A DNA stretch of 64,000 bases from an uncultured Pelagibacteraceae bacterium (GCA_902532525.1 CACAIK010000004.1:1-64000), one strand, 5' to 3'. Numbered from the stretch's first letter, positions 3 to 28,539 are shown. Made by a program: numbers and translations. Notes: generated by a model not told the origin, from the sequence alone.

Positions 3-947
3 CAGACATTTTATAATGATAAAATACAATATAATGAATTTGATAAAATGCCATTTATTTCTACACCTATCTTTAAAGAAATAGATCTAAAAAGTATTAA
101 AGAAAGTAATATATTAAAGGAAATGAATTCATCTGGAACTTCAGGAAAAAGTTTGTCAAAGATATATCTTGATAAAATAAATGCAAGTAATCAAGTTAAA
201 ACTTTAAAAAACATTGTCCAATCAGAAATAGGAGATAAAAGATTACCAATGTTGATTGTTGACAGTGATCCAAGGGAATATAAAAAAAAATATTCTAAAA
301 TTAACGCTAGACTGGCAGCAATTAATGGCTTCTCTATTTTTGGAAAAAATCACACTTACATTCTAAAAACAAATATGGAGATTAATTTTGAAAAATTATT
401 AAATTTTTTAAAATTAAATGGAAATAAACCATTTTTAATTTTTGGTTTCACAAGTTTAATCTATGAATTTTTTGTAAAAAAACTAAATAATACATTAAGT
501 AACAATGCGTTAAAAAACGGTATTATTATTCATGGAGGTGGGTGGAAAAAATTAGAAAATATGAATATTTCTAATAAAAAGTTTAATGAAATTTTACGAA
601 AAAAAACTGGGGTGGATAATATAATAAATTATTATGGTTTAGTTGAGCAAACAGGATCCATATTTATGGAGTGCAAAAAATGTAAAAATTTTATTACCTC
701 TAATTTTTCAAAAATTATTATTAGAACTAAAGAATTAAAACCTCAAAAAGATAATAGTATTGGATTAATTCAGTTGTTTTCTTTAATACCAACTAGTTAT
801 GCTGGTCATATTTTGCTTACGGAAGATGAAGGAAAAATTGTAAAAAGAGGTAAATGCAAATATTGCAAACAAAAAAAAGGAACTAGATTTAAAGTTTTTG
901 GTAGAACTAAAATGGCTGAATTAAGAGGTTGCAGTGACACCATCTAA
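3..947 (+). CDS. LuxE-like acyl-protein synthetase (5' end outside window)
   Basis: The protein resembles LuxE-family acyl-protein synthetases, which adenylate an acyl group and pass it to a cysteine. Counting from the first in-window ATG (48), it has a Ser/Thr/Gly-rich adenylate-binding loop at residues 27-35 (NSSGTSGKS), a YGLVEQ motif near 197 that matches the YGxTE motif of adenylating enzymes, paired cysteines (CKKC, CKYC), and a C-terminal ELRGCSD typical of LuxE. In LuxE the acyl-accepting cysteine lies near the C-terminus, so this one is a candidate. The frame is open upstream of 48 to the window edge, and LuxE proteins are about 360 residues, so roughly 50 N-terminal residues are missing. 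It overlaps the LuxC-like gene by 14 bp. Confidence 0.8.
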   Translation, partial: QTFYNDKIQYNEFDKMPFISTPIFKEIDLKSIKESNILKEMNSSGTSGKSLSKIYLDKINASNQVKTLKNIVQSEIGDKRLPMLIVDSDPREYKKKYSKINARLAAINGFSIFGKNHTYILKTNMEINFEKLLNFLKLNGNKPFLIFGFTSLIYEFFVKKLNNTLSNNALKNGIIIHGGGWKKLENMNISNKKFNEILRKKTGVDNIINYYGLVEQTGSIFMECKKCKNFITSNFSKIIIRTKELKPQKDNSIGLIQLFSLIPTSYAGHILLTEDEGKIVKRGKCKYCKQKKGTRFKVFGRTKMAELRGCSDTI

Positions 948-2124
948 TAAAAAAATTAAAATTGTATTAGGAGAAAAAAAATTCAAATTAAATATATTTA
1001 AAAATTACGATGATCTAATTTTAAATTTTTTGTCAGACCTTTCCAAAATAATTTTTGAAGAAAAAAATATTAAAATTTATCCAGATCTTTTGTCTTTTGC
1101 GTTTTGGATAAGAAAATCTAATTTATTAGCTAATAAAAATAAAAATATTAAAGCAAACTCTTTGGGTTTGGGACTAGCATTTCATGTTCCACCATCAAAT
1201 ATACCTTTAAATTTTGCCTACTCATTAGTTTTTGGTATGATTGGTGGAAATTCAAATATAGTAAGAATTCCTAGCAAAGAGAATCCACAAAGTGAAATTT
1301 TAATTAATTCTTTAAAAAAAATTTTAAAAAAAAAAAAATATTTAAATATCAAAAAATCGCTTCTTTTAGTTAAGTATGATCATGATGATGAGATAAACAA
1401 ATTTTATTCGAAAATATGTGATTGCAGACTAATTTGGGGAGGAGACTCTACCATTCAAATATTTAAGAATTATGAGACTAAACCAACTAATTTAGATATA
1501 CTATTCCCCGATAAATATTCTTTAAGTATTATAAATTCGGATAAATTGGTAAAATTAAGAAAACAAGATATTAATACACTTATAAAAAATTTCTATAACG
1601 ACACTTATCTTTTTGATCAAAATGCTTGCACTTCTCCTCACCTAATTTTATGGTTCGGTAGAAATATTAAAAGTGGAAAAACATTATTCTGGAATAATCT
1701 TCACAAATATTTAAAGAAAAAATATGAATATAATAATTATGTATCTATTAGAAAATATTCAACATTATTAAAATTATTATTAAAATTAAATAAAATTGAA
1801 AAACTAAATAATTTATCCAATTTATTATATGTTGCAGAATTAAATAAACTTCCGAGTAACATAGATGAATTCAAAGGATACGCAGGAATTTTCTTTGAAT
1901 TTAATATTAAAAATTTAAATAGTCTATCAGGAATACTTAATAGAAGATTTCAGACTTTATTATATCATGGATTTGAAAAAAAAAAATTATTGGACATTTT
2001 GATAAATAATAAATTTAGAGGTATCGATAGGATAGTTCCTATTGGTAGGGGATTGGATATGAATTTTTTGTGGGATGGATATAGACTTGACAAAGTTTTA
2101 TCCAGAGAAATTGAAATTTTATAA
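934..2124 (+). CDS. LuxC-like acyl-CoA/acyl-protein reductase
   Basis: This 396-residue protein resembles the LuxC branch of the aldehyde dehydrogenase superfamily, which reduces acyl thioesters to aldehydes with NADPH. It has the PPSNIPLNFAYS segment near residues 86-97, the GGNSNIVRIPS cofactor-binding region, and a likely nucleophile, Cys232, in DQNACTSPH. It starts with GTG inside the end of the LuxE-like gene, so translational coupling is likely. LuxC and LuxE form a fatty-acid reductase complex in luminous bacteria. No luciferase is present here, so the aldehyde probably feeds another pathway, perhaps with the nearby transketolase and carrier protein. Confidence 0.82.
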   Translation: MTPSNKKIKIVLGEKKFKLNIFKNYDDLILNFLSDLSKIIFEEKNIKIYPDLLSFAFWIRKSNLLANKNKNIKANSLGLGLAFHVPPSNIPLNFAYSLVFGMIGGNSNIVRIPSKENPQSEILINSLKKILKKKKYLNIKKSLLLVKYDHDDEINKFYSKICDCRLIWGGDSTIQIFKNYETKPTNLDILFPDKYSLSIINSDKLVKLRKQDINTLIKNFYNDTYLFDQNACTSPHLILWFGRNIKSGKTLFWNNLHKYLKKKYEYNNYVSIRKYSTLLKLLLKLNKIEKLNNLSNLLYVAELNKLPSNIDEFKGYAGIFFEFNIKNLNSLSGILNRRFQTLLYHGFEKKKLLDILINNKFRGIDRIVPIGRGLDMNFLWDGYRLDKVLSREIEIL

Positions 2125-2126
2125 AG

Positions 2127-2585
2127 ATGAAAAATATCAAATTAAATAGAGATGAAATATTAAAAATTCAAATGAATAGAGATCCTTATTTAATGATTGA
2201 TCATGCAGATGAAATTATTATTGGGAAAAAATCACGAGGCTACAAACATTTAAAAAATGATGAATGGTTTTTTAAGGTTCATTGGCCCGGCGATCCAAAT
2301 ATGCCAGGAATGTTACAACTAGAAGCTATGACACAAATGGCATCTTTGATAATTCTTTCAAAAAAAGAAAATCATAAAAAACTTATGTATTTAGTTTCTA
2401 TGGATAAAATACGTTTTTTTAAAAAAGTAGTACCCGAAAATAAATTACAAATTGAAACAGAATTGATTAATTGGAATAGAGGTATAGGCAAATTTGTAGG
2501 TAAATGCATGATAAATAATGATATTGTAAGTAAAGCAGAATTTAAGTTAATGTTGCTTGACGAATTAAGAAAGTATAATAAATAA
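2127..2585 (+). CDS. FabZ-like hot-dog dehydratase
   Basis: This 152-residue protein has the hot-dog fold signature of beta-hydroxyacyl-ACP dehydratases. The motif HWPGDPNMPGMLQLEAMTQ at residues 52-70 corresponds to the FabZ consensus HFPGxPxMPGVLxxEAxAQ, with catalytic His52 and Glu66 kept. The length is normal for FabZ. The family dehydrates 3-hydroxyacyl-ACP. Because it sits 2 bp after the LuxC-like gene and upstream of a FabG-like reductase and an ACP gene, it is probably a pathway-specific paralogue and not the housekeeping FabZ. The exact acyl substrate cannot be read from the sequence. Confidence 0.8.
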   Translation: MKNIKLNRDEILKIQMNRDPYLMIDHADEIIIGKKSRGYKHLKNDEWFFKVHWPGDPNMPGMLQLEAMTQMASLIILSKKENHKKLMYLVSMDKIRFFKKVVPENKLQIETELINWNRGIGKFVGKCMINNDIVSKAEFKLMLLDELRKYNK

Positions 2586-2598
2586 GGGTATATAAATT

Positions 2599-3660
2599 AT
2601 GCCAATTGCTTCATCACTTTTAAACAAACCAAGACTGGTAAAAAAATTAAGAGATTTTTATACTTATGTCCAAAAAAATAATGGACGTGTTGGAACTAAA
2701 ACAAGAGGTATTGATCTTAATTTTAACAATGCCTGTAATTTAAGATGTAAATATTGTTTCACTAATTCCCCTAAAGGTGACCATGTAAAAGAATATTTAG
2801 ATTATGATGCAATTGCTAAACTTGCCAATGAAGCAGATGAACTAGGTTATTTTGAGTTTGATCTTCAAGGTGGAGAGCTTTTGCTGCAACCAAAAAAACT
2901 TTTTAAAGTTTTAGAGGCAATAAAACCTGAAAGATTTTATCTTTATCTTACAACTAATGGTTTTTATCTAGATAAAGAAATGGCTCAAAAACTTGCAGAT
3001 GCTAATGTGAGTAGAGTTTCAGTTAGCATTGATAGTATGGATGAAAAAATTCATGATGAAATTAGAGGAAGAAAAGACTCTTGGAGAAGAGCGATAGAGG
3101 CTTTAAAGCATGTTAAAGATGCAGGAATGGATCCTTATCTGAATATTACTGTTGGCCATTATAATGCTAATACTGATCATTTTAAACAATTACTAGATTA
3201 TTCGAAAGATCAAAAATATAAAACATTGTTGAATGTTGCGGTGCCAGCAGGCATGTGGCAAAAAATGGATGAAATTATTTGTGATGACAAAGATAGAGAG
3301 TATTTAAGAAAAATTAGAAAAGAATATAAAAATTTAGTAAGAAATGTTTGGAATCCTTTTGATAAGAATCATGAAAAAATATTAGGATGCACTACAGTAA
3401 ATAGACTTTATGTTACACCAATAGGAGATGTTTTAGTTTGTCCTTATGTTCATATAAAAATAGGAAATATATTTAATAGTTCTCTTAAGGACATTGTTCA
3501 CAATGGTTTTAAAATAAAATACTTTAGAAATCACAGCGATTTATGTCTTGCTGGTGAGGATAAAGAATTTATTTCTAAATTTATGACAAAGTCAGGTCAA
3601 ACAATATTTAAACCTGCTCTGGCAGAGGATATTTTCTCTAAAGAAGATTACGTAGAATAA
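2599..3660 (+). CDS. Radical SAM enzyme with C-terminal cysteine region
   Basis: This 353-residue protein carries the radical SAM CxxxCxxC motif as Cys46, Cys50 and Cys53, which bind the 4Fe-4S cluster that cleaves S-adenosylmethionine. GGEL near residue 92 matches the SAM-binding GGE motif. Further cysteines in GCTT, LVCPY and DLCL (about residues 264, 283 and 314) suggest an auxiliary SPASM/twitch-like cluster domain. The family ranges from peptide maturases to sugar-modifying enzymes, so the reaction is unknown. It lies between the FabZ-like and FabG-like genes and is presumably part of the same acyl or sugar pathway. Its lower density of A/T runs compared with later genes suggests a better conserved gene. 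Confidence 0.78.
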   Translation: MPIASSLLNKPRLVKKLRDFYTYVQKNNGRVGTKTRGIDLNFNNACNLRCKYCFTNSPKGDHVKEYLDYDAIAKLANEADELGYFEFDLQGGELLLQPKKLFKVLEAIKPERFYLYLTTNGFYLDKEMAQKLADANVSRVSVSIDSMDEKIHDEIRGRKDSWRRAIEALKHVKDAGMDPYLNITVGHYNANTDHFKQLLDYSKDQKYKTLLNVAVPAGMWQKMDEIICDDKDREYLRKIRKEYKNLVRNVWNPFDKNHEKILGCTTVNRLYVTPIGDVLVCPYVHIKIGNIFNSSLKDIVHNGFKIKYFRNHSDLCLAGEDKEFISKFMTKSGQTIFKPALAEDIFSKEDYVE

Positions 3661-3663
3661 ATT

Positions 3664-4404
3664 ATGCTTCTAAAAAACAAAACAGCTTTACTAACAGGCT
3701 GTAATAGAGGGATAGGAAAAGAAATTTTAAAAATATTTGCAAATAATAAATCAAATCTAGTTTGTTGTGTAAGGCAAGCAGATGAGGCCTTTTCGAATTT
3801 AATTAACCAACTTAAAATTGAAAATAATATTAAGATAGACGTCTATTATATAGATTTTGAGAAGGAAAAAAATATAAAAGAAATTGCAAGTGATATTATT
3901 AAGAATCATCAAATAAATATTTTGGTAAATAATATTGGGTACTTAGAAAATTCATTATTTCAAATGACAACAAGTCAAAACCTTAAGAAACACTTTGATG
4001 TCAATTTTTTTTCACAGTTCGAATTTACCCAATATATTATAAAATCTATGATTAAAATTAAAAATGGTAGTATAATCTTCATTTCTTCAAGCGCATCTTT
4101 AGATGGTAACATTGGAAGATCATCTTATTCGTCAAGCAAATCTGCAATAAATGCATTATCAAAAGTCTTATCAAGGGAACTAGGAAGATATAATATTAGA
4201 GTAAACACAATAGCTCCAGGACTAGCAGATACTGATATGATGAGAAATACAACTGATGAAAAAGTTTTAAACGACATTGTTAAAAATCTGTCTTTAAAAA
4301 GGATTGCAGATCCTGCGGAAATAGCTAACGTTGTGTTATTTTTAGCTTCAGATTTATCATCATATTTAACTGGCCAATTGATACGAGTTGACGGAGGCAT
4401 CTAA
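3664..4404 (+). CDS. FabG-like short-chain dehydrogenase/reductase
   Basis: This 246-residue protein is a classical SDR. It has the TGxxxGxG nucleotide-binding motif at residues 11-18 (TGCNRGIG), a NNIG motif near residue 90, a catalytic serine in ISSSASL and the YxxxK pair in SYSSSK. The C-terminal part (IAPGLADTDM and YLTGQLIRVDGG) is most like FabG 3-ketoacyl-ACP reductases. The neighbouring dehydratase and ACP genes support reduction of a carrier-bound keto group, although a sugar substrate is possible. The stop codon overlaps the next start, so it is probably cotranscribed and coupled with the transketolase genes. Confidence 0.8.
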   Translation: MLLKNKTALLTGCNRGIGKEILKIFANNKSNLVCCVRQADEAFSNLINQLKIENNIKIDVYYIDFEKEKNIKEIASDIIKNHQINILVNNIGYLENSLFQMTTSQNLKKHFDVNFFSQFEFTQYIIKSMIKIKNGSIIFISSSASLDGNIGRSSYSSSKSAINALSKVLSRELGRYNIRVNTIAPGLADTDMMRNTTDEKVLNDIVKNLSLKRIADPAEIANVVLFLASDLSSYLTGQLIRVDGGI

Positions 4405-5228
4405 TGAAAAATAAAGATAAAATTGAAAGTATAAAAAATTTAGCTAAGAAATTAAGAAAAAATATATTAGATATGTCCTTATATGCAGGTTCAAGTAGTG
4501 CTCATTTTGGAGGGGCCCTGTCATCTGTTGAAATAGTCTCTACTCTTTTTAATGGAATTATGGAATTAGATAAAAACGTTGAGTCAGAAAGTAGGGACCG
4601 TTTTATTTTAAGCAAAGGGCATGGTTGCCTAGTGTATTATGCTGTTTTAGCTGAGTTAGGTTATATTTCATATGATGAGCTAAAAACATTTGAAAAAAAC
4701 GACTCAGATTTATTAGGTCATCCAGTTATTAATCGAAAAAAAGGTATTGAATTTAGCAATGGAAGTTTAGGCATGGGATTATCATTGGGTATCGGAGTTG
4801 CAAAAGCTTTAAAAATTAAAAACTTAAAAAATAAAGTTTTTGTTCTAATGGGAGATGGAGAATGCAACGAAGGATCAGTTTGGGAGTCGGCAATGTCAGC
4901 TGTTCATTTATCAATAGACAACATTACTCTTATTATTGATAATAATAACTTTCAACAAACTGGATCAAATTCAGAAATAATGAATTTGGGTGATATCAAA
5001 AAAAAATGGGAAAGTTTTGGATGGTATACTGAAAAGTGTAATGGACATGATGTTGAAGATTTAATATCGAAGTTTGAGAATTTTAAAAAAGTAAGTAAAC
5101 CAAAAGTTTTGATTTGTGAGACAATTAAAGGAAAGGGTTTTAAATTTTCTGAAAATAATAACAAATGGCATCATTCAGTATTATCCAAGTCTCAATATGA
5201 AGAGGCTTTAAAAGAATTAAATTTGTAA
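4404..5228 (+). CDS. Transketolase, N-terminal (TPP-binding) subunit
   Basis: This 274-residue protein is the N-terminal half of a split transketolase. It has SKGHG at residues 70-74 and the thiamine-pyrophosphate signature GDGECNEG at 150-157, followed by the NN pair near 180. A full transketolase is about 650 residues. Here the second half is the next gene, which overlaps by one base, so the two form a heterodimeric enzyme. Transketolases move a two-carbon ketol unit from a ketose to an aldehyde. The position between a fatty-acid-like reductase set and an ACP suggests a specialised acceptor aldehyde in place of pentose-phosphate turnover. That role is inferred. Confidence 0.88.
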   Translation: MKNKDKIESIKNLAKKLRKNILDMSLYAGSSSAHFGGALSSVEIVSTLFNGIMELDKNVESESRDRFILSKGHGCLVYYAVLAELGYISYDELKTFEKNDSDLLGHPVINRKKGIEFSNGSLGMGLSLGIGVAKALKIKNLKNKVFVLMGDGECNEGSVWESAMSAVHLSIDNITLIIDNNNFQQTGSNSEIMNLGDIKKKWESFGWYTEKCNGHDVEDLISKFENFKKVSKPKVLICETIKGKGFKFSENNNKWHHSVLSKSQYEEALKELNL

Positions 5229-6205
5229 TGTTAGATAAGAGTTTTTTTAATAGTAAAAATATAAATATTTGGTCAGCTGTAGGCCCAAGAGCTAGTTATG
5301 GTTTAGCTATGTATGAAATGGCTAAAACTAGAGATGATTTGATGATTATAACTGCAGATGTTTCTACATCTGCTGGACTAGATAGATACAGAAGAGATTT
5401 TCCAGAAAAGTATCTTGATGTTGGAATAGCTGAACAAAATATGATTGGTATCGCCGCGGGTATTGCAAGTGAAAATTTTAAAGTTTACACAACGACTTTT
5501 GCTCCATTTCAAACAGCAAGATGTCTAGAGCAAATAAAAGTTAATTTAGGTTACATGAAACATAAAGTCTGCATGACTGGGCTTGCTAGTGGATTGGTTC
5601 TTGGAACACTTGGTTATACCCATTGTTCAATTGAAGATATCGGTATGATTAGATCTATACCAAATATTTCAATTGTATCTCCCGCAGACTCTTTTGAGAC
5701 AATAAAAACGTTAAATGCTTTCATTGATCATGATCAATCATTATATATTAGATTAACAGGAGGCTCCCCAAATCCTAAAGTTTATGAAAGTGATTATGAA
5801 TTCAAAATAGGTAAAGGCATTGTTCTGAACAAAGGCGAGGATATTGCAATTATTTCATGCGGTTCAAGCGTCAATATTGCTACGGAGGTTGTAAAAGATT
5901 TAAAAAATATTAATAAAATAAATGCTAAGCTAATAAATATGCATACTATAAAACCAATAGATGCTGAAGTATTAAATGAAATAAATGATACAACAAAATT
6001 AATTGTTACAATTGAAGAACATAATATTATTGGAGGTCTAGGCTCAGCTGTTTGTGAAGCCTTATCAGATTTAAACAAAAAAAATAAACATATAATGATT
6101 GGTCACCCAGATAGTTATGGTAAGGGAGGAGAGTACAAATTTTTGTTGAATAAGTATGGATTTTCAAAAGAAAATATTATAGGTAAGATTTTAAAAAATT
6201 TATGA
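5228..6205 (+). CDS. Transketolase, C-terminal (pyrimidine-binding) subunit
   Basis: This 325-residue partner of the upstream gene carries the TPP pyrimidine-binding domain. The proton-relay glutamate is Glu69 in GIAEQNMIGIAAG, as in transketolases and 1-deoxyxylulose-5-phosphate synthase. A C-terminal transketolase domain follows (IISCGSSV, then TIEEHNIIGGLGSAV near residues 260-273). The two-gene form is common in archaea and in polysaccharide or secondary-metabolite loci. Its 3' end overlaps the ACP start by 4 bp (ATGA), which points to coordinated translation. The sugar or acyl aldehyde it works on is not evident. Confidence 0.88.
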   Translation: MLDKSFFNSKNINIWSAVGPRASYGLAMYEMAKTRDDLMIITADVSTSAGLDRYRRDFPEKYLDVGIAEQNMIGIAAGIASENFKVYTTTFAPFQTARCLEQIKVNLGYMKHKVCMTGLASGLVLGTLGYTHCSIEDIGMIRSIPNISIVSPADSFETIKTLNAFIDHDQSLYIRLTGGSPNPKVYESDYEFKIGKGIVLNKGEDIAIISCGSSVNIATEVVKDLKNINKINAKLINMHTIKPIDAEVLNEINDTTKLIVTIEEHNIIGGLGSAVCEALSDLNKKNKHIMIGHPDSYGKGGEYKFLLNKYGFSKENIIGKILKNL

Positions 6206-6444
6206 GTGATAATTTATCTATTTATAAAGAATGTTTTTCTGAAAGTCTTTCTATTTCAAGTGAGATAGTAAATAAGAATTTAAAATATAACGAAATTGAC
6301 GAATGGGACTCCATAGGTCATATGACTTTGATATCTTCACTAGAGGAGAAATTCAACATATCTTTTGAAACTGACGATGTAATTGATTTTAGTTCATATA
6401 CCAAGGGTATAGAAATTCTAAAAAAATATAAAATAGAAATTTAA
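6202..6444 (+). CDS. Acyl carrier protein
   Basis: This is an 80-residue acidic protein with the phosphopantetheine attachment motif DSIGHM, where Ser37 is the expected carrier residue. The spacing and the following helix (TLISSLEEKFNISFETDDV) match bacterial ACPs. It overlaps both neighbours (ATGA with transketolase, TAATG with the pseB-like gene), so it is embedded in the operon. It is likely a dedicated carrier for the intermediate handled by the LuxE/LuxC, FabZ and FabG-like proteins. A housekeeping acpP would normally sit beside fabF/fabG, which is not the case here. Confidence 0.85.
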   Translation: MSDNLSIYKECFSESLSISSEIVNKNLKYNEIDEWDSIGHMTLISSLEEKFNISFETDDVIDFSSYTKGIEILKKYKIEI

Positions 6445-7427
6445 TGTTAAACAATAAATCTATTTTAATTACCGGGGGAACAGGTACTTTTGGAAAACAT
6501 TTTGTAAGTTATATAATTGATAATTTCAAACCAAAAAAGTTGGTAATTTTTTCTAGAGATGAAATGAAGCAATATTTAATGGAAGAAGATTTCCCTATAA
6601 AAAAATATAAATTTTTAAGGTATTTTGTTGGTGATATAAGAGATGAAAAAAGATTAAAATTAGCAATTAGAGATATAGATATTGTAATTCATGCTGCAGC
6701 TTTAAAAATAGTACCGACCGCTGAATATAATCCAATTGAGTGTATTAAGACAAATATTTATGGAGCGGAAAACATTGTTAATTGTTGTATAAATAGTGGT
6801 GTAAAAAAAGTATTAGCACTATCAACTGATAAAGCTGTAAATCCAATAAATCTTTATGGTGCCTCAAAACTGGCTGCTGATAAAATTTTTATAGCTGCGA
6901 ATAATTTAACAAGAAAATTTGAAACGAGATTCTCAGTAGTTAGATATGGAAATGTTGTTGGATCTCGAGGGTCAATTGTGAATCTTTTTCAAGATTTGGC
7001 AAAAAAAAAATCAAGCATTATTCCAATCACACACAAAGAAATGACAAGGTTTTTTATTACAGCTAATGATGCAGTTAAATTTGTTTTGAATAGCCTTAAT
7101 AAAATGAAAGGTGGAGAAATATTTGTTCCTAAACTTGGATCGTTTAAAATTGTTGATTTAGCGAAAGTTATTGCACCAAAAAATAAAATTAAAATTATTG
7201 GAATTAGACCTGGAGAAAAAATTCATGAAGTTCTTTGTTCTTATGATGAAAGCAGGAATATAAAAGAATATTCAAATTATTATCAAATAAATCCAAATTC
7301 AAAAAACTCAAGTGCTCTTACTGGAAAAATGTTTGAATACAACTCTAGAGATAATAAAAATTTTTATAATCTAATTAAAATTAAAAATATACTTAACAAG
7401 TCAAAATTGTTTGACAAAAAATTTTGA
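6444..7427 (+). CDS. pseB: UDP-GlcNAc 4,6-dehydratase (inverting), PseB-like
   Basis: This 327-residue extended SDR has GGTGTFGKHF at residues 11-20 (NAD binding), LSTDKA near 126-131, and Tyr138/Lys142 in YGASK. The block from FSRDE through HAAALKIVPTAEYNP is characteristic of PseB/FlaA1 enzymes, which convert UDP-GlcNAc to UDP-2-acetamido-2,6-dideoxy-beta-L-arabino-hexos-4-ulose. A PseC-like aminotransferase at 10,152-11,324 would be the next step. The gene is one base downstream-coupled to the ACP gene. The rest of the pseudaminate pathway (PseG, PseH, PseI) is absent, so the end product is probably a 4-amino-4,6-dideoxy sugar or a derivative. Confidence 0.87.
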   Translation: MLNNKSILITGGTGTFGKHFVSYIIDNFKPKKLVIFSRDEMKQYLMEEDFPIKKYKFLRYFVGDIRDEKRLKLAIRDIDIVIHAAALKIVPTAEYNPIECIKTNIYGAENIVNCCINSGVKKVLALSTDKAVNPINLYGASKLAADKIFIAANNLTRKFETRFSVVRYGNVVGSRGSIVNLFQDLAKKKSSIIPITHKEMTRFFITANDAVKFVLNSLNKMKGGEIFVPKLGSFKIVDLAKVIAPKNKIKIIGIRPGEKIHEVLCSYDESRNIKEYSNYYQINPNSKNSSALTGKMFEYNSRDNKNFYNLIKIKNILNKSKLFDKKF

Positions 7428-9317: not shown

Positions 9318-10165
9318 TTATATGGACTAAGAAATTTATCATTATTTAATTTAATTTTAAGAATTTTATTTATGACATCTTTTTTTTCTTTGGTACTTCT
9401 GATATTTAAATTTTCTTTTAACTGATTTATATTATTAACACCAACTATAACATTATCTATATATTTTAATCCATTAACCCAAATAAAAGATAATTCATAT
9501 AACTTAATTTGTTTATAATTTTTTAATATATCTGTTATTTTATCTAATATAATTTTAGTTTTTTTGTCATAAAAACGGTATTTTTTTAAAAAAAACATCC
9601 CCTGAAAAAAAACTGATCTTGCATATATTTTTATATTTTTTTTCTTACAGTAACTTATAGTTTTTTTCTCAATAAATCTTCTATCAAAAATATTTATTGG
9701 TATTTGAATAATTGAAATATTTTTTAATTTACTGATATATTTTAAATCATAAACTCTATGGAAAGATACTCCAATCTCTTTAATTTTATACCTCTTACAA
9801 AGTGTAAATACTATTCTGCGTTTATCTTTATTTAGATAATCTTTAAAGTAATGAAAATATAATACTTTAGGTGGTTTACCCAACCTTTTGATCATTGATT
9901 TTATTTGTTCCTCAACTTGAAATTTGCTTTTAATTGAAATTTTCGTGTGAATATTCCATCTTTGTTGTTTTTGTTTTTTTATATATTCACCTATTATTTT
10001 TTCACTATTTGGATAATTGATCGAAGTATCAATGGTATTTATATTGTTTTTAAAACAAAAACTTAAAAGCTTAAAACATTCATGAGCTCTTAATTTTTTT
10101 TTATTTGATATACCATAATTACTTCCTATCTGTGCACCCCCCAAAATAATTTTATTTTTGTACAT
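9305..10165 (-). CDS. Aldo/keto reductase family protein
   Basis: This 286-residue protein resembles aldo/keto reductases with a TIM-barrel fold. It has GGAQIGSNYG at the N-terminus, NTIDTSINYP with the catalytic Asp/Tyr region near residues 40-50, and a conserved lysine in IHTKI. Members of this subgroup lie in surface-sugar loci beside PseC-like aminotransferases and cytidylyltransferases, as here. The usual role is NADPH-dependent reduction of a carbonyl. The N-terminal residues overlap the PseC-like gene end by 14 bp and the C-terminus overlaps the SDR gene, which indicates a tightly coupled three-gene operon. The substrate is unassigned. Confidence 0.75.
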   Translation of the reverse strand: MYKNKIILGGAQIGSNYGISNKKKLRAHECFKLLSFCFKNNINTIDTSINYPNSEKIIGEYIKKQKQQRWNIHTKISIKSKFQVEEQIKSMIKRLGKPPKVLYFHYFKDYLNKDKRRIVFTLCKRYKIKEIGVSFHRVYDLKYISKLKNISIIQIPINIFDRRFIEKKTISYCKKKNIKIYARSVFFQGMFFLKKYRFYDKKTKIILDKITDILKNYKQIKLYELSFIWVNGLKYIDNVIVGVNNINQLKENLNIRSTKEKKDVINKILKIKLNNDKFLSPYKWKI

Positions 10166-11324
10166 ATTTTTTTAATAATCTAATAAATTTCAGTTGTTCT
10201 TTTTTTTTTAAACCTACATAATTGGGAATGGAGAACACATCATCATAAAATTTATTTGTATTAGGAAAATCATTTTCTTTAAATTTATATTTATCTTTAT
10301 AATATGGGTGTTTATAAATAGGTATATAGTGAACTTGAAGCTTAAAACCACTTTTAAAAAAGTAATTGAAAAATTTAATTTTATTTAATTTTAATTTTTT
10401 AAAATTAATTCTTAGAGGGTATAAATGATATGCATGTGAAGTATTAGAAATTTTTTTTGGAGTATGTATATAATCTATATTTCTAAGTGTATCGTCGTAA
10501 ATGCTTGCAATTTTCTTCCTAATTTTAACAAATTTATTTAATTTTTTAAGTTGTGAAATACCTAGCGCACAATTAATGTCTGATATCCTAAAGTTTAGTG
10601 ATAGGTCTTGAACTTCATAGTACCAATTGGGGACGTTTTTTTTCTTTCTAAAATTACTTCTATTTCTCTCTATACCATGAGATCTTAGAATATTGACTTT
10701 ATCAGAAATATCTTTTTTATTTGTCAAAATTGATCCTCCTTCACCTGTAGTTATATTTTTTACAGGATGATAACTCTGACAAACTAGATCAGCATATTTT
10801 GAAGCGTATCCCAGTGAGCTATTATATTTTGCACCCATGGAGTGACAATTATCATTTATTACTTGGAATTCATATTTGTTAGCTAAATATCTAATACTTT
10901 CCCAATCACATGGTTGCCCAGCGTAGTCTACTGCAATCAAACCCCTAACTAATTTATTTTTTTTTCTTAGATTAATGATTTTATTTTCTAATTTATTAGG
11001 ATCTATGCAATTATCTAATTCATTTATATCTACTAGTTCTGTAATCCCACCTACAGACTCAATTGCATTTGCTGAAGCAATAAACGTATTTGGTGTTGTA
11101 ATAATTATATCATTTTTGCTCCAACCTAAAGATTTACAGCCAATATATAGAGCTGCAGTTCCATTAGAAACAGCAAATGCATATTTTGCATTGAAGTAAT
11201 TTTTTAAGTCTTTCTCGAACTTTTTGACGAAATCTCCTTGAGTTATTAAATCAGAATTAAGTGATTTAATTACTAATTTGATATCGTTTTTGTCAATATT
11301 TTGTCTTGAGTAATTAATTTTCAT
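10152..11324 (-). CDS. pseC: UDP-4-keto-6-deoxy-sugar aminotransferase, PseC-like
   Basis: This 390-residue protein is a DegT/DnrJ/EryC1/StrS aminotransferase. The opening YSRQNIDKNDIKLVIKSL and DLITQG are typical of PseC. PLP-binding features include SNGTAAL near residues 53-59, DNCHSMG at 158-164, and Lys189 in YHPVKNITTGEGG as the Schiff-base lysine. PseC adds an amino group to C4 of the PseB product, using glutamate. It is the first gene of a minus-strand operon with the aldo/keto reductase and the PtmA-like SDR, and diverges from the PhyH-type gene across 95 bp. I am confident of the family and fairly confident of the PseC subgroup. Confidence 0.85.
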   Translation of the reverse strand: MKINYSRQNIDKNDIKLVIKSLNSDLITQGDFVKKFEKDLKNYFNAKYAFAVSNGTAALYIGCKSLGWSKNDIIITTPNTFIASANAIESVGGITELVDINELDNCIDPNKLENKIINLRKKNKLVRGLIAVDYAGQPCDWESIRYLANKYEFQVINDNCHSMGAKYNSSLGYASKYADLVCQSYHPVKNITTGEGGSILTNKKDISDKVNILRSHGIERNRSNFRKKKNVPNWYYEVQDLSLNFRISDINCALGISQLKKLNKFVKIRKKIASIYDDTLRNIDYIHTPKKISNTSHAYHLYPLRINFKKLKLNKIKFFNYFFKSGFKLQVHYIPIYKHPYYKDKYKFKENDFPNTNKFYDDVFSIPNYVGLKKKEQLKFIRLLKKYVQK

Positions 11325-12148: not shown

Positions 12149-12898
12149 ATGATAAATGCCACATTGGAGGCCAGGTTAGGCTCTAAACGATTTCCAAATA
12201 AATTGTTTAGAAATCTTGGTAAAATAACCTTCTTGCAATTTCAAGTAAAGAGAATTTTAAAATCTAAACATTTAAAAAAATTAATAATTGCAACAACTAA
12301 AAAAAAACAAGATAAAAAAATTTTAAATTTATCGAAAAAATTAAAAATCGATTGTTATTCTGGAGAAAGTGAAAATGTTCTTAAACGTATTTATAATATA
12401 CATAAAAAAAATAAAACAAAAGTATTAGTGAGATTATGTGGTGATAACCCATTTCAAGATCCAAAAATGATCGATGATGCAATAAAGATCTATTTGAAAG
12501 GCAAATATGATATAGTTTGTTATGGTGGTCCTCCAGGTATAAGAAAAATACCTTATGGTTTCGATATTGAGGTATTATCTTTTGATTTGCTTGCTTTAGC
12601 TTTTAAGAAAGCTAGAAAAAAAATTCACTTAGAACATCCAACAAAGTATTTGTATGATAAAGAAAAAAATTTAAAAATAAATTATCTTAGACCTAAGAAC
12701 AAAAAATTTTTTGAACCTAAAATGACTTTTGCTTTAGATTATCCTGATCAAGAAAAATTTTTGAATAGTGTTCTGTTGGCTGTAAAAGATAAAAATGCCA
12801 GCTATAAAAAGATAATTACTACAGTAAAAAGAACGAAAAAATTAAATCACATGGCTAAAATTTTAACAAAAAAATATGTATTGAAAAGGAAATTTTAA
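12149..12898 (+). CDS. SpsF-like cytidylyltransferase family protein
   Basis: This 249-residue protein has the nucleotidyltransferase N-terminal motif EARLGSKRFPNK near residues 7-18 and VRLCGDNPFQDPKMID near 94-109, as in SpsF/COG1861 CMP-sugar synthases. These enzymes activate a sugar acid or other sugar with CTP. A nonulosonate synthase (PseI/NeuB) would usually accompany such a gene, but none is present in this window. The N-terminal loop is slightly unlike the classical R-x-G-S-x-R-x-P pattern because RLGSKRFP follows an unusual NATLEA start. The family call is good and the substrate is uncertain. Confidence 0.7.
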   Translation: MINATLEARLGSKRFPNKLFRNLGKITFLQFQVKRILKSKHLKKLIIATTKKKQDKKILNLSKKLKIDCYSGESENVLKRIYNIHKKNKTKVLVRLCGDNPFQDPKMIDDAIKIYLKGKYDIVCYGGPPGIRKIPYGFDIEVLSFDLLALAFKKARKKIHLEHPTKYLYDKEKNLKINYLRPKNKKFFEPKMTFALDYPDQEKFLNSVLLAVKDKNASYKKIITTVKRTKKLNHMAKILTKKYVLKRKF

Positions 12899-16178: not shown

Positions 16179-17081
16179 ATGAGTAATATAGGTCATAATA
16201 ATCCTCCCCTAGATCCTAAGGAAACTATACAAAAAAATATTGAGAGAAAAAAACCAATTCTAGATAGAATTCCTCAATATTTTAAATCAGTTCCACTTCC
16301 AAGTTGGATAGAGTTAAGTTTAATAGATAATTGCAATAGATCTTGTAGTTTTTGCCCAAAATCAGACGAGAAAGTTGCACCTAACACACATCAAAAAATG
16401 GAAGAAATCTTAATAGACAAATTATACAAAGATTTGAAAGATATAAATTTTCAAGGAGCATTTTGTTTTTGTGGATATGGAGAACCTATGCTGCATAAAA
16501 AAACTTTACAGTATGCTAATAAATTAGGAGAGTTAGGGGGAGTTGAAATTATAACTAATGGAGATACATTAAATGAAAAACAATTAGTTGAAATTTATCA
16601 GTCAAAAACTACTAGACTCTTAATAAGCCTTTACGATGGAGAACATCAAATAACAAAGTTTAAACAAATGATTAAAAATTCTCAAATACCTGAGGATTTT
16701 GTTATTTTAAGGGACAGATGGTATTCAGATAAAATAGACTTTGGAGTGAAATTAACAAATAGAGTAGGCACAATAGAAGTTGGAAAACAAAATGAAATAA
16801 ATGTCAAAAAAAAATGTTATTACACAAGTTATCAAGTTTTAATTGATTGGAATGGTGATGTTTTTTTATGTCCTCAAGACTGGCAAAGAAGAGTAACAAT
16901 GGGAAACATTATGCAAAGAAGTTTTTTTGATATTTGGAATGGAAAGATTTTAAATAAGTTTAGAAAAATTCACCAGACACAAAGAAATATTAACCCTTGT
17001 AATTCATGTAATGCTAATGGTGATGTTTACGGGGAGAAACATTTTTCAGCATGGAAAGAATATTATAGTCCATCTAAATAA
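16179..17081 (+). CDS. Radical SAM/SPASM-domain enzyme
   Basis: This 300-residue protein has CxxxCxxC as Cys52, Cys56 and Cys59 (NCNRSCSFCP) for the S-adenosylmethionine cluster. GYGEPML near residue 102 is the GGE-like SAM motif. The C-terminal half has KKCYYTSY, DVFLCPQDW and NPCNSCNANGD, a SPASM-like set of cysteines for auxiliary iron-sulfur clusters. Related enzymes act on peptides or on aminoglycoside-like sugars. Here, 3 bp after the EPS regulator and 4 bp before an aminotransferase, a sugar dehydrogenation or rearrangement is plausible. The reaction is unassigned. Confidence 0.8.
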   Translation: MSNIGHNNPPLDPKETIQKNIERKKPILDRIPQYFKSVPLPSWIELSLIDNCNRSCSFCPKSDEKVAPNTHQKMEEILIDKLYKDLKDINFQGAFCFCGYGEPMLHKKTLQYANKLGELGGVEIITNGDTLNEKQLVEIYQSKTTRLLISLYDGEHQITKFKQMIKNSQIPEDFVILRDRWYSDKIDFGVKLTNRVGTIEVGKQNEINVKKKCYYTSYQVLIDWNGDVFLCPQDWQRRVTMGNIMQRSFFDIWNGKILNKFRKIHQTQRNINPCNSCNANGDVYGEKHFSAWKEYYSPSK

Positions 17082-17085
17082 TTAA

Positions 17086-18312
17086 ATGACAAATATACTA
17101 AATGAAAATTATAGAAATGCCAAAATTTTTTTTGATAAAGCAAAAAAAGATTATATATATTCCGGCAAAAAAAAATATATTGATTTATCTTTTGCATCTG
17201 GAACAGCTATACTTGGCCATTCGTCAACCATCCAAACAAAAATTTTTAAAGATTTCACAAAAAAAAATTTATCTTTATTCGCCCCTAATAAATACACTTT
17301 AGATCTATTAAAAACTTTAAAAAAATTTTTACCAGATCATTATACTAATATTATATTTTGCAATACTGGTACAGAAGCAGTAATAAAATCACTTAGAATT
17401 TCTAGAGCAATATCTGATAAAAAAGTTATTGCGAATGTTTCAGGTAGTTGGCACGGTTCAGTTGATCAACTTCTATACATGCCGAAAAAAAATTTATTGC
17501 CTAGGCAGATTTCAGATGGATTGAATAAAGATGATAAAAAAAACTTAATATTTATTCCATATAATAATATAATTGAAACTAAACAAATTTTAGATAAAGT
17601 TAAAAAAAAATTGGCTTGTGTCATAATTGAGCCAATCCAAGGAAGTCTTCCTAACGAAATATCGTTTAATTACCTTAAATTTTTACATAATTACACAAAA
17701 AAGAATAAAATTATTTTAGTTTTTGATGAAATGATAACTGGTGTTAGAACGGGATGTAAAAGTGTTCAAGAAATCTATAAATTAAAACCAGATATATCTA
17801 CATTTGGTAAAATTTTTGGAGGAGGTATGCCTATTGGGTTTTTGGCTTTGAATAATAAAATTTCAAAAAAAATTAAAAAAAGAAAGTTAAATATACATTT
17901 TGGAGGAACTTTTACCTCAAACCCCTTTACCATGTACTCATCTAACGAAACGCTAAAATATATTTACAAAAACAAAAATAAAATTTTTAAAAAAATAGAA
18001 AAGTACTCAAAAATATTTCAAGAAAGTATTAATGATTTTTGTTTAAAAAATGAACTAGATATAAAAGTTTACAGATTTCAATCTATGTTAAGAATAATAT
18101 TCACAAAAGATAAGATAAATAATAGGTTTCAAAGAGATCAATTAGAAAAAAACAAAAATTTAAAAATAGAAAACTTCAAAAATTTCTTATTACAAAAAAA
18201 AATATATTATCCAAATAATGGAATTATTTTTTTCTCAAATCAATCCAGTAAAGAAAACTTAAATTACTTACTAAAAAATTTTAAAATAGGATTAAAAAAA
18301 TATTTTGGATAA
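17086..18312 (+). CDS. Class III PLP-dependent aminotransferase
   Basis: This 408-residue protein resembles class III aminotransferases close to glutamate-1-semialdehyde aminomutase. It has FCNTGTEAVIKSLRISRA near residue 92, FDEMITGVRTG near 220 with the PLP-ring-binding Asp, and STFGKIFGGGMPIG with Lys242 as the Schiff-base lysine. It lacks any sign of being part of a heme operon. In polysaccharide loci such enzymes can aminate or racemise an unusual precursor. The placement directly after a radical SAM enzyme suggests a two-step conversion, oxidation then amination. That coupling is inferred from order only. Confidence 0.82.
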   Translation: MTNILNENYRNAKIFFDKAKKDYIYSGKKKYIDLSFASGTAILGHSSTIQTKIFKDFTKKNLSLFAPNKYTLDLLKTLKKFLPDHYTNIIFCNTGTEAVIKSLRISRAISDKKVIANVSGSWHGSVDQLLYMPKKNLLPRQISDGLNKDDKKNLIFIPYNNIIETKQILDKVKKKLACVIIEPIQGSLPNEISFNYLKFLHNYTKKNKIILVFDEMITGVRTGCKSVQEIYKLKPDISTFGKIFGGGMPIGFLALNNKISKKIKKRKLNIHFGGTFTSNPFTMYSSNETLKYIYKNKNKIFKKIEKYSKIFQESINDFCLKNELDIKVYRFQSMLRIIFTKDKINNRFQRDQLEKNKNLKIENFKNFLLQKKIYYPNNGIIFFSNQSSKENLNYLLKNFKIGLKKYFG

Positions 18313-18346
18313 AATTATTTAATAACAAATTATATTTTATTAATTA

Positions 18347-18829
18347 ATGAAAAATGTTTGGAAAAAAATTGACAGTATAAATTTAAACAGCTCAAAAGAA
18401 TGTTTGGATATGTTATTAAAAAAAAAATATGTCATAAGTCCATGGATAAATAATATTTTTAAAGGTAATCAATTTAAATTTGATAAAATTAATTTTCCTG
18501 TCTCTTTAGTAAGATACTCCTTAAAAGAGCTTAATTTTAATAATCAAACTGAATTGTTAAAAGTTTATGAAAAATCTAAAGATATGGGATTAGAATTAGT
18601 ACCTCCTCAAATAGCATTATATACTAGGCTCATTTATGATGAACAGCCAAAAGGTGAATGGCTTAGATTTGCTACACCTTTAAAATCCATGATAGACACT
18701 GATGGAGTACCTCATCTTCCAAAATTTGGAAATGCTCTTGGCTTGTATTTTATAGAGACTTATTGGGCATATGAAAAAGCTATTTTTCATCCACACAACG
18801 AATTTGTTTTTGTTAAAAAAAATACATGA
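18347..18829 (+). CDS. Unrecognised 160-residue protein
   Basis: I do not recognise a named function. The protein is soluble, with no membrane segment or signal peptide. A conserved-looking core at about residues 83-105 contains LVPPQIALYTRLIYDEQPKGEWLRFATP, and the end has aromatic ETYWAYEKAIFHPHNEFVF. The PP...LRL.Y..QPKGEW pattern looks like a small conserved family seen in various bacteria, and that is a weak impression. The gene lies 34 bp after the aminotransferase and overlaps the flavin oxidoreductase by 4 bp (ATGA), so it is probably translated with it. Confidence 0.7.
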   Translation: MKNVWKKIDSINLNSSKECLDMLLKKKYVISPWINNIFKGNQFKFDKINFPVSLVRYSLKELNFNNQTELLKVYEKSKDMGLELVPPQIALYTRLIYDEQPKGEWLRFATPLKSMIDTDGVPHLPKFGNALGLYFIETYWAYEKAIFHPHNEFVFVKKNT

Positions 18830-19893
18830 TTCTAAAAAGAACTAAAATTAATAAAATTAATTTAGCAAATAGATTTGTTATTTCTCCAATGTGCCAATAT
18901 TCTGCAAATAACGGCAATCCATCAGAGTGGCACTATGAGCACCTTTTAAGACTCGCTCGTACAGGAGCAGGTATGTTAATGATAGAATCTACATCCGTTA
19001 ACAAAATTGGAAGAATATCAAAAAAAGATTTAACTTTAGCAAATAATAAAAATGAGAAAAGTATATCTAAGCTTGTCAAATTTTTAAAAAAAAAAACAAA
19101 TATTCCACTAGGAATTCAAATTTCTCACTCTGGCAGAAAAGGTTCATCCGAAATACCATGGATAAAATCTAACCAAAGTTTAAAAAAAAATGCTTGGAAT
19201 ACAATTGCGCCATCACCGATAAAAAGAACAAAATTATGGCCCATTCCCAAAGAAATGACCTTAAGTGATATTAAGAAATTAATAAATGACTTTAAGAAAA
19301 CTGCTCAAAGAGCTAATAGAGCAAAATTGGATTGTTTAGAAATACACATGGCTCATGGTTATCTTTTACATCAGTTTTTCTCAAAATTATCAAATATTAG
19401 AAAAGATGAATACGGTGGAAGCTTGGCTAATAGATCAAGACTTTTAATAGAAATATCTGATGCAGTAAGAAAAGTTTGGCCAAAAGGTAAGATTTTGGGA
19501 GCAAGAGTTACAGGTTCAGATTGGATGAAAAATGGCATTACAGAAAAAGATACAATTTATCTTGTAAAAAAGCTAAAAAAAATAGGTTTTGATTATGTTT
19601 GTGTTTCAAGCGGCGGGATTGTACCTAAAACTAATCTAGTTTTTAAAAAAGGATATAATGTCAAATTTGCAATTAAAATTAAAAAAGAAACTGGCATTGT
19701 TACACGGGTTGGAGGAATTATTAATGATTTCAAATATGCTAATTCATTGATAAAACAAAAAAAAGTTGATTTTATTGCAAATGCTAGAAAATTCATAAAT
19801 GACCCAAATTGGTTATTGAAAGAGTATGCTAAAAAGAAAAAAAACAAAAAATTTATATTAAACCAATACAAAAGGTGCATCAGTTTTGATTAA
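18826..19893 (+). CDS. Old Yellow Enzyme family NADH:flavin oxidoreductase
   Basis: This 355-residue TIM-barrel flavoprotein has SPMCQYSANNG near residues 20-30, QISHSGRKG near 98-106 and YGGSLANRSRLLIEI near 196-210, all signatures of the Old Yellow Enzyme family. HMAHGYLLHQF near 174-184 carries conserved active-site histidines. Members reduce activated C=C bonds with NAD(P)H and FMN. Its location among sugar and acyl genes suggests a tailoring reduction. A general detoxification enoate reductase carried in the locus is the alternative. It is shorter than the fused 2,4-dienoyl-CoA reductase type, so it is a single-domain member. Confidence 0.85.
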   Translation: MILKRTKINKINLANRFVISPMCQYSANNGNPSEWHYEHLLRLARTGAGMLMIESTSVNKIGRISKKDLTLANNKNEKSISKLVKFLKKKTNIPLGIQISHSGRKGSSEIPWIKSNQSLKKNAWNTIAPSPIKRTKLWPIPKEMTLSDIKKLINDFKKTAQRANRAKLDCLEIHMAHGYLLHQFFSKLSNIRKDEYGGSLANRSRLLIEISDAVRKVWPKGKILGARVTGSDWMKNGITEKDTIYLVKKLKKIGFDYVCVSSGGIVPKTNLVFKKGYNVKFAIKIKKETGIVTRVGGIINDFKYANSLIKQKKVDFIANARKFINDPNWLLKEYAKKKKNKKFILNQYKRCISFD

Positions 19894-27160: not shown

Positions 27161-27763
27161 ATGATTGCAATTATTGATTACGATGGGGGAAACACAAAAT
27201 CAATATTAAATGTTTTAAATAGATGTAAAATTGAATACTGCGTAACAAATAAAGAAAGTGAAATAATCAAATCATCAAAAATAGTATTACCTGGTGTATC
27301 AAATTTTTCATACTGTATGAATAGTCTGAAAAAGTATAACTTGGACATTATTATTAAAAATCAAATTTTGATAGATAAAAAACCATATCTAGGAATATGT
27401 TCTGGAATGCAAGTACTTGGAACATTTAGTGAAGAGGGTAATACCGAGGGATTAAATATTATACCTGGAAAAATTAAAAAGTTACCAATTAATAAATCTA
27501 AAATAGTCCCGCATGTTGGTTGGAATAAAATTTTTTTTAAGGATAATATCTTATGTAATAATATACTAAATCAAACAAGATTTTATTTCTGCCACTCTTA
27601 TTATTTTGAAGTAGAGAATCAAAATCATGTTCTGATGAATGCTAATTATGGTATTAATTTTTGCTGTGGTTTAAGAAACGATAATATATTTGGTATACAG
27701 TTTCATCCTGAAAAAAGTTTATTAGATGGAATGAAAATATTACAAAATTTTGCAAAAATTTGA
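27161..27763 (+). CDS. hisH: HisH-type glutamine amidotransferase for sugar amidination
   Basis: This 200-residue class I glutaminase has DYDGGNTKSI near residues 6-15, the nucleophile Cys80 in GICSGMQ, and FHPEKS near 183-188 with the His/Glu pair. These are the features of HisH. It lies directly before a HisF-like gene (4-bp ATGA overlap) and close to an N-acetyl-sugar amidotransferase gene. The trio is known from P. aeruginosa (WbpG, HisH, HisF) and makes acetamidino groups, with ammonia from glutamine passed to WbpG. Histidine biosynthesis is unlikely because no other his gene is present. Confidence 0.83.
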   Translation: MIAIIDYDGGNTKSILNVLNRCKIEYCVTNKESEIIKSSKIVLPGVSNFSYCMNSLKKYNLDIIIKNQILIDKKPYLGICSGMQVLGTFSEEGNTEGLNIIPGKIKKLPINKSKIVPHVGWNKIFFKDNILCNNILNQTRFYFCHSYYFEVENQNHVLMNANYGINFCCGLRNDNIFGIQFHPEKSLLDGMKILQNFAKI

Positions 27764-28539
27764 ATATGAAATTAATAAGAATTATCCCATCTTTGCTTGT
27801 TAAGGATAATTTTTTAGTTAAAGGTGAAAATTTTAAAAAACATTCATATATAGGAGATGTTTATAATGCAGTAAAAATTTTTTCTGAAAAAAATTCTCAT
27901 GAAATTATTTTACTTGATATAGATGCAAGACGAAATAAAAAGTCGTTTAATTTGGATTTAATAAAAAAAATTAAAAAAGAAATATTTGTTCCATTAACAA
28001 TAGGTGGGGGCATTGAAAATATTGATCAGGTATCTGCAATAATTGATGAAGGAGTTGAAAAAGTTTCCTTAAATTCGAATATAGAAAAAAATTTTAATCT
28101 AGTTGAACAAGTGTCAAAAAAATTCGGAAGTCAAAGCTCGATTGCCTCTATAGACGTAAGAAAGATAGACAATAAGTATAAAGTTTATTTTAGAAATGGA
28201 GAAAAATTTTCAGACCTAGATTTAATTAAATATATCAAAAATCTTGAAAATGCTGGATGCGGTGAAATTATTTTGACCTCTATTGATAATGAAGGAAAGA
28301 GATGTGGATTTGACATTGAACTTTACAAACTATGTCATGAATTAGTAAGTATACCAATAATTGCTCATGGAGGTGCAGCAAATTTAAACTCATTTACTGA
28401 ATTATTTGATAACACTAAAATATCAGCAGCATCAGGTGGCAGTTGTTTTGTTTATTATGGAAAAAGAAAAGCAGTATTAATTAATTATCCAAATAAATTA
28501 GAAATTAATGAATTAATGAATAAATATGAAAAGAACTAA
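27760..28539 (+). CDS. hisF: HisF-like partner for acetamidino synthesis
   Basis: This 259-residue beta/alpha barrel resembles imidazole-glycerol-phosphate synthase HisF. RIIPSLLVKDNFLVKG at residues 7-22 aligns with the HisF opening RIIPCLDVKDGRVVKG. Leucine 13 occupies the place of the essential cyclase aspartate (Asp11 in the Thermotoga enzyme). The barrel phosphate loops (GGGIEN near 84, GGAA near 204) remain. Loss of that aspartate is typical of HisF paralogues that pass ammonia to a sugar amidotransferase. It overlaps the HisH gene by 4 bp and is followed by a membrane protein and WbpG-like enzyme. Confidence 0.82.
   Translation: MNMKLIRIIPSLLVKDNFLVKGENFKKHSYIGDVYNAVKIFSEKNSHEIILLDIDARRNKKSFNLDLIKKIKKEIFVPLTIGGGIENIDQVSAIIDEGVEKVSLNSNIEKNFNLVEQVSKKFGSQSSIASIDVRKIDNKYKVYFRNGEKFSDLDLIKYIKNLENAGCGEIILTSIDNEGKRCGFDIELYKLCHELVSIPIIAHGGAANLNSFTELFDNTKISAASGGSCFVYYGKRKAVLINYPNKLEINELMNKYEKN

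Follow-up and report, generated by a model that had tools for sequence, protein, structure and literature searches.

A conserved gene cassette of LuxE, LuxC, split transketolase and acyl carrier protein associated with pseudaminic acid genes in a Pelagibacteraceae bacterium

The beginning of contig C4 of an uncultured Pelagibacteraceae bacterium carries genes for acyl activation, acyl reduction, fatty-acid-type redox steps and ketol transfer in a single string, which raises the question of what such a combination may produce. The window analyzed is the first 64,000 nucleotides of this contig (GCA_902532525.1, CACAIK010000004.1:1-64000); the host genome, 1.18 Mb in 38 contigs, is of the SAR11 type, and the nearest named loci are from Pelagibacteraceae. 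Between positions 3 and 6444, eight genes were found on the same (+) strand, in the order LuxE, LuxC, FabZ, radical SAM, FabG, TKN, TKC and ACP, neighbors overlapping or lying at most 13 bases apart, so that the tight coupling reported in a preliminary description is confirmed.

The first gene (3..947), a LuxE-like acyl-protein synthetase (PF04443, 149 bits), is truncated at its 5' end, because the window and the contig share their first base; 314 amino acids are kept and, when aligned to LuxE of the 7xc6 structure (7xc6_E), show the acyl-accepting cysteine within a C-terminal RGCSD motif. In the LuxC-like acyl-thioester reductase (934..2124; PF05893, 81 bits) Cys232, within DQNACTS, aligns with the cysteine of DQQACFS in 7xc6 LuxC, which is presumably the active-site residue. 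They are followed by a FabZ-like 3-hydroxyacyl-ACP dehydratase (2127..2585; FabA/FabZ, 77 bits) with intact His and Glu, by a radical SAM/SPASM-Twitch enzyme (2599..3660; Radical_SAM and SPASM domains) and by a FabG-like SDR reductase (3664..4404; SDR/FabG) with an intact Ser-Tyr-Lys set. A split transketolase is encoded by an N-terminal, ThDP-binding chain, TKN (4404..5228; Transketolase_N, 136 bits), and a C-terminal chain, TKC (5228..6205; Transket_pyr and Transketolase_C), in which D469 and R520 (E. coli numbering) are replaced by Leu and Gly. The last gene encodes an acyl carrier protein (6202..6444), with a weak NCBIfam match (25 bits), a DS motif and a phosphopantetheine site at Ser37. 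The catalytic residues intact in the window are also conserved in the respective families: the cysteine in 115/115 LuxE and 109/109 LuxC sequences, the serine in 99/99 ACPs, His and Glu in 68/69 and 69/69 FabZ sequences, and Ser-Tyr-Lys in 90/90 FabG sequences. A tblastn search with E. coli FabH and FabF as queries detected no ketosynthase in the 64 kb of the window, in agreement with the preliminary description. As to LuxAB luciferase and LuxD, the genes up to 18.8 kb match other Pfam families, or none, and the other contig end carries ligase, PseI and PseG.

The gene string extends beyond position 6444, since the ACP stop is overlapped by the start of PseB (6444..7427, +), the inverting UDP-GlcNAc 4,6-dehydratase which performs the first step of pseudaminic acid synthesis (TIGR03589, 448 bits against a cut-off of 408). 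Further downstream, a PseC-like aminotransferase of the DegT family (10152..11324, minus strand) scores 405 bits with TIGR03588, just under the cut-off of 423.5, and a CMP-sugar cytidylyltransferase (12149..12898, +) is a candidate PseF. The contig start also removes what would precede LuxE: in 18 of the 19 relatives' loci having upstream sequence, an AMP-binding ligase of about 460 amino acids is located directly 5' of LuxE. In the genome under study the ligase occupies the extreme end of contig C25, where it follows PseI (414.7 bits against a cut-off of 340) and PseG (slightly below cut-off), and the gene order in relatives suggests that C25 and C4 are probably adjacent. PseG, PseI and the ligase on C25, taken together with PseB, the PseC-like protein and the CMP transferase in the window, place the cassette within a pseudaminic acid cluster. 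The gene list of the preliminary description thus holds for the eight families, but lacked the pseudaminic context and the putative ACP-loading ligase, which lies on C25. The best or good PDB matches of this ligase are enzymes acting on small acids (oxalate, succinylbenzoate, malonate).

Other genes of the neighborhood deserve mention. The PseG homologue on C25 (L197:2345-3898) is 517 amino acids long, and its C-terminal portion of about 240 residues, without a Pfam match, is possibly a fused acyltransferase. Genes for GATase, HisF-like and PP-loop ATPase proteins are located at 27161-28539 and 29492-30634 of the window and presumably resemble the WbpG/HisH2/HisF2 system, which produces acetamidino sugars of surface glycans. 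A second radical SAM/SPASM gene is found at 16179-19893, with a class III aminotransferase and an oxidoreductase of the old yellow enzyme type as neighbors.

The preliminary description had suggested looking for this grouping in other genomes. LuxC homologues were detected in 26 of 297 sampled Pelagibacterales, and in 15 of 150 good genomes; all eight families occur together in 20 of the 23 Pelagibacterales LuxC loci read, and related forms were found in many phyla. The grouping is therefore not due to chance, and the cassette is real, conserved and functionally coherent. Its composition was evaluated on the 80 best of more than 570 LuxE matches, drawn from many phyla; since these loci include some from SAR11 and are skewed to close relatives, the following counts are not population frequencies: ligase 79, LuxC 73-74, ACP 66, FabG 60, TKN 45, TKC 44, FabZ 33, radical SAM 18 and GMC oxidoreductase 7, along with NeuB 27, DegT 35 and an acyltransferase-like hexapeptide protein 19. 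A core devoid of transketolase, made up of LuxE, LuxC, ligase, ACP and FabG, is widespread. A relation between transketolase and absence of ketosynthase was considered and rejected, as 12 of the 114 loci have FabH nearby, and the transketolase is present in roughly half of these 12. No LuxE relatives were found in viral contigs, and LuxC, used as single-protein query against genome contigs, gave no match.

Some loci show additional arrangements. In L088, L119, L140, L141 and L149, from several Bacillota and other bacteria, parts of the module are duplicated, LuxE-LuxC or TKN-TKC being present in two pairs, as though the module were used twice or gave two products. On a plasmid of Rhizobium anhuiense (L076, 6137-18320), a transketolase cassette with GMC oxidoreductase and FabZ is located near siderophore and amino-acid transport genes.

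As to the transketolase, in a tree of 88 sequences 54 of the 55 LuxE-linked TKC form one clade (SH-aLRT 99), which includes none of the 29 control transketolase-like sequences. Residues for ThDP binding and catalysis are kept in the cassette proteins, both in TKC (E411 69/69, H473 67/69, D381 69/69) and in TKN (H26, H66, N185 and H261, each 63/63). By contrast, the substrate contacts H461, D469 and R520 of transketolases using sugar-phosphate acceptors are lost, being replaced by A/G, L/F/S and G, respectively. Gly replaces R520 in 65 of the 69 cassette sequences, while R or K is present in 28 of 29 controls. D469 is lost in all 69, but was rejected as a marker on its own, because Asp is also absent from 21 of the 29 controls; only the R520 to Gly change is cassette-specific and, being confined to one clade, it may represent a single event. 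The split transketolase of Carboxydothermus hydrogenoformans (6yaj/6yak) shares the two-chain layout and the ThDP residues with the cassette, but retains the equivalents of H461, D469 and R520. Changes at the same positions are known from enzyme engineering: on propionaldehyde, E. coli transketolase is improved 5-fold by D469T and 9.6-fold by D469T/R520Q (PMC6310800), and in the yeast enzyme, where R528 is a phosphate ligand, D477E increases the use of aliphatic aldehydes 50-100-fold (PMC5573996). Given these precedents, the loss of Asp469 and of the phosphate-binding Arg520 suggests an acceptor pocket suited to a non-phosphorylated aldehyde, such as LuxC would make. The lost phosphate contacts also serve to bind donor ketose phosphates, so that the cassette enzyme and ordinary transketolases may use different donors.

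The radical SAM enzyme contains six invariant cysteines, a CX3CX2C motif and three more (264, 281, 316) in the C-terminal SPASM/Twitch region, as found in the BtrN-like radical SAM alcohol dehydrogenase. Its fold is of the SPASM/Twitch type, and BtrN is matched with Z 14.3, ranking under SkfB, viperin, BlsE and anSME; no one function was singled out by the fold search. In the loci read, the variable position of the series FabZ-X-FabG-TKN-TKC is occupied either by the radical SAM gene or by a GMC oxidoreductase, never by both. The exchange suggests an oxidation step, and by analogy with GMC the radical SAM enzyme may oxidize an alcohol. The radical SAM and GMC loci, however, fall mostly in two subclades of the transketolase tree, so that their mutual exclusion may reflect one replacement event. 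Among SAR11 loci (2599-3660 of the window; L044-L064) the median amino-acid identity is 0.86 for the radical SAM protein, compared with 0.39-0.62 for the other seven. Recent recombination was rejected as the cause, as divergence at fourfold sites is 0.40 against 0.37-0.41 in the other genes; high protein identity with equally saturated fourfold sites indicates that the enzyme is under unusual constraint. It was also rejected as a core SAR11 gene, since, of the 61 near genomes, only that of the window carries it, and elsewhere it accompanies the cassette.

The core of this gene combination is already on record. In clusters of the Dickeya zeae type, here compared by description, LuxC, LuxE, AMP ligase, split transketolase, FabG and ACP are found together, as in SAR11, beside amino-sugar genes, and a putative role in forming a flagellin 'liposugar' has been proposed. 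These clusters contain two FabG, lie beside fliC and have a VioA aminotransferase in place of pse genes, with FabZ and radical SAM unnamed; the SAR11 cassette contains both and has no flagellin in the window. Flagellin glycosylation islands provide further parallels. Those of Aeromonas group II polar flagella (PMC7874193) contain ACP, 3-oxoacyl-ACP reductase, AMP synthetase, LuxE and LuxC among pse genes, as here, but neither transketolase nor radical SAM is named, and the core list is without FabZ. Enterobacterial islands (PMC4875605), for which the 'liposugar' idea is also put forward, list Acp, LuxE, LuxC, CaiC, FabG and one FabZ, transketolase and radical SAM being unnamed among the fatty-acid enzymes. 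The five-enzyme core of such islands and the pseudaminic genes are both found in the genome under study, if the ligase, PseG and PseI of C25 are counted. A neighborhood of flagellar genes was not found: FliC and FliD have no match in the window, and FliC is present in only 2 of 114 loci. With the fatty acid reductase of bioluminescence (7xc6) the cassette shares the LuxC and LuxE families and the catalytic cysteines, but NCBIfam equivalog scores are far below cut-off (56.7 against 550 bits for the LuxE fragment, 41.9 against 750 for LuxC), and in the cassette LuxCE is accompanied by ligase and ACP. In the open-access literature, no description was found of the version with FabZ and radical SAM, or of its pseudaminic context in SAR11, nor was a publication found which tests the chemistry of the cassette. 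The claim that no pathway with exactly this set is described therefore stands, within the open-access literature, for the FabZ and radical SAM version, not for the set of LuxC, LuxE, ligase, transketolase, FabG and ACP; FabZ and radical SAM, the SAR11 host and the pse context are what is new.

From these elements we infer the catalytic steps, their order, the donor and the product of a tentative route. The AMP ligase located 5' of LuxE would charge the dedicated ACP with a carboxylic acid, whose oxidation state would be adjusted by FabG, FabZ and the radical SAM enzyme. The acyl group would then move onto the C-terminal cysteine of LuxE, to be reduced to an aldehyde by LuxC, and the split transketolase, with its acceptor pocket changed for a non-phosphorylated aldehyde, would add a two-carbon ketol unit, thus forming a C-C bond without a ketosynthase. 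Finally the SDR, or the radical SAM enzyme replacing the GMC oxidoreductase of other lineages, would set the redox state before transfer to a sugar. That the operon serves a carrier-protein pathway for an unusual acyl- or alkyl-derived substituent on a surface glycan containing pseudaminic acid is the reading preferred here, although it is given slightly less than an even chance. Its more specific form is held with a little more reserve: acyl-ACP would be converted by LuxCE to an aldehyde and lengthened by the dedicated transketolase rather than by a ketosynthase, with tailoring by FabG, FabZ and radical SAM (or GMC), to give sugar substituents of a new class. The sequence from acyl group to aldehyde to ketol, already put forward in the preliminary description, is favored by the intact active sites of LuxE, LuxC and ACP and by a transketolase clade which has lost Arg520 and Asp469, while neither product nor donor is proved. 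Against this route, it is not obvious how acyl transfer would attach an aldehyde or a ketol to an amino sugar; in addition, the loci in which the core works without transketolase indicate that LuxCE need not feed it.

The same widespread core fits a different route, rather unlikely on balance, in which ligase, ACP, LuxE and LuxC would reduce one carboxyl of a small (di)acid, the SDR would yield the alcohol, and the product would N-acylate an amino sugar, the transketolase only varying the carbon skeleton. The model is the synthesis of 3-deoxytetronate by RfbK-RfbL of V. cholerae O1, set beside the cassette by description, where a carrier protein and an acid ligase are also encoded in an O-antigen cluster; RfbL is a 2,4-dihydroxybutanoate ligase, putatively acting with the carrier RfbK, and transketolase, FabZ and radical SAM are not mentioned (PMC12208996; Morona et al. 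1995, cited there). The matches of the cassette ligase to small-acid ligases are consistent with this. Moreover, the flagellin glycan of A. piscicola AH-3, which carries the core without transketolase, contains a pseudaminic derivative of 376.14 Da and an unknown unit of 102 Da (PMC7874193); by mass arithmetic 102.03 corresponds to C4H6O3 (dihydroxybutanoyl) and 376.15 to Pse with one acetyl swapped for a C4H6O3 acyl group, a fit which is not proof, but makes a small hydroxy acid more likely than a long fatty chain. An iron alcohol dehydrogenase of the RfbM type was not seen in the cassette, and the dedicated transketolase clade would be left unexplained.

LuxC and LuxE could also work in the oxidative direction: the transketolase would take C2 off a ketose, LuxC would turn the shortened aldehyde into a thioester and LuxE would pass it to ACP, delivering a sugar-derived acyl group to the glycan. 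LuxC does belong to the aldehyde dehydrogenase superfamily, and acyltransferase-like hexapeptide and DegT genes are frequent neighbors (19 and 35 of the best 80 of more than 570 matches). The direction is nevertheless improbable, since the ligase, present in 79 of these best 80 loci, would be redundant, LuxCE acts reductively in bioluminescence, and a sugar phosphate is less to be expected in a pocket that has lost R520. Still less probable is a lipid route, in which a long-chain aldehyde and a ketol unit would give a 1,3-dihydroxy-2-alkanone, a sphingoid-like or ether-lipid precursor: LuxE and LuxC of bioluminescence work on long chains, and transamination would yield the sphingoid skeleton, but the loci are mostly sugar or glycan clusters (NeuB 27 and DegT 35 of the best 80 of more than 570 matches), and no ketosynthase is found in the 64 kb window. 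Finally, that the transketolase is just a local supplier of sugar precursors, chemically unrelated to LuxCE, is very improbable given a distinct clade found in the sample only beside LuxE and with an altered acceptor pocket, even if linkage alone cannot prove a shared intermediate and cores without transketolase are common.

If the preferred route, with transketolase acting on carrier-derived aldehydes, is true, a chain-building chemistry would be common to many phyla (Pseudomonadota including SAR11, Bacillota, Bacteroidota, Synergistota, Elusimicrobiota and others), and would account for the unexplained 'fatty acid' genes of flagellin and surface-glycan clusters. Nature would have altered the same two active-site positions as engineers did in E. 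coli transketolase, and the cassette would constitute a directly testable enzyme set. Some SAR11, a group among the most abundant bacteria of the ocean, possess its version with FabZ and radical SAM.
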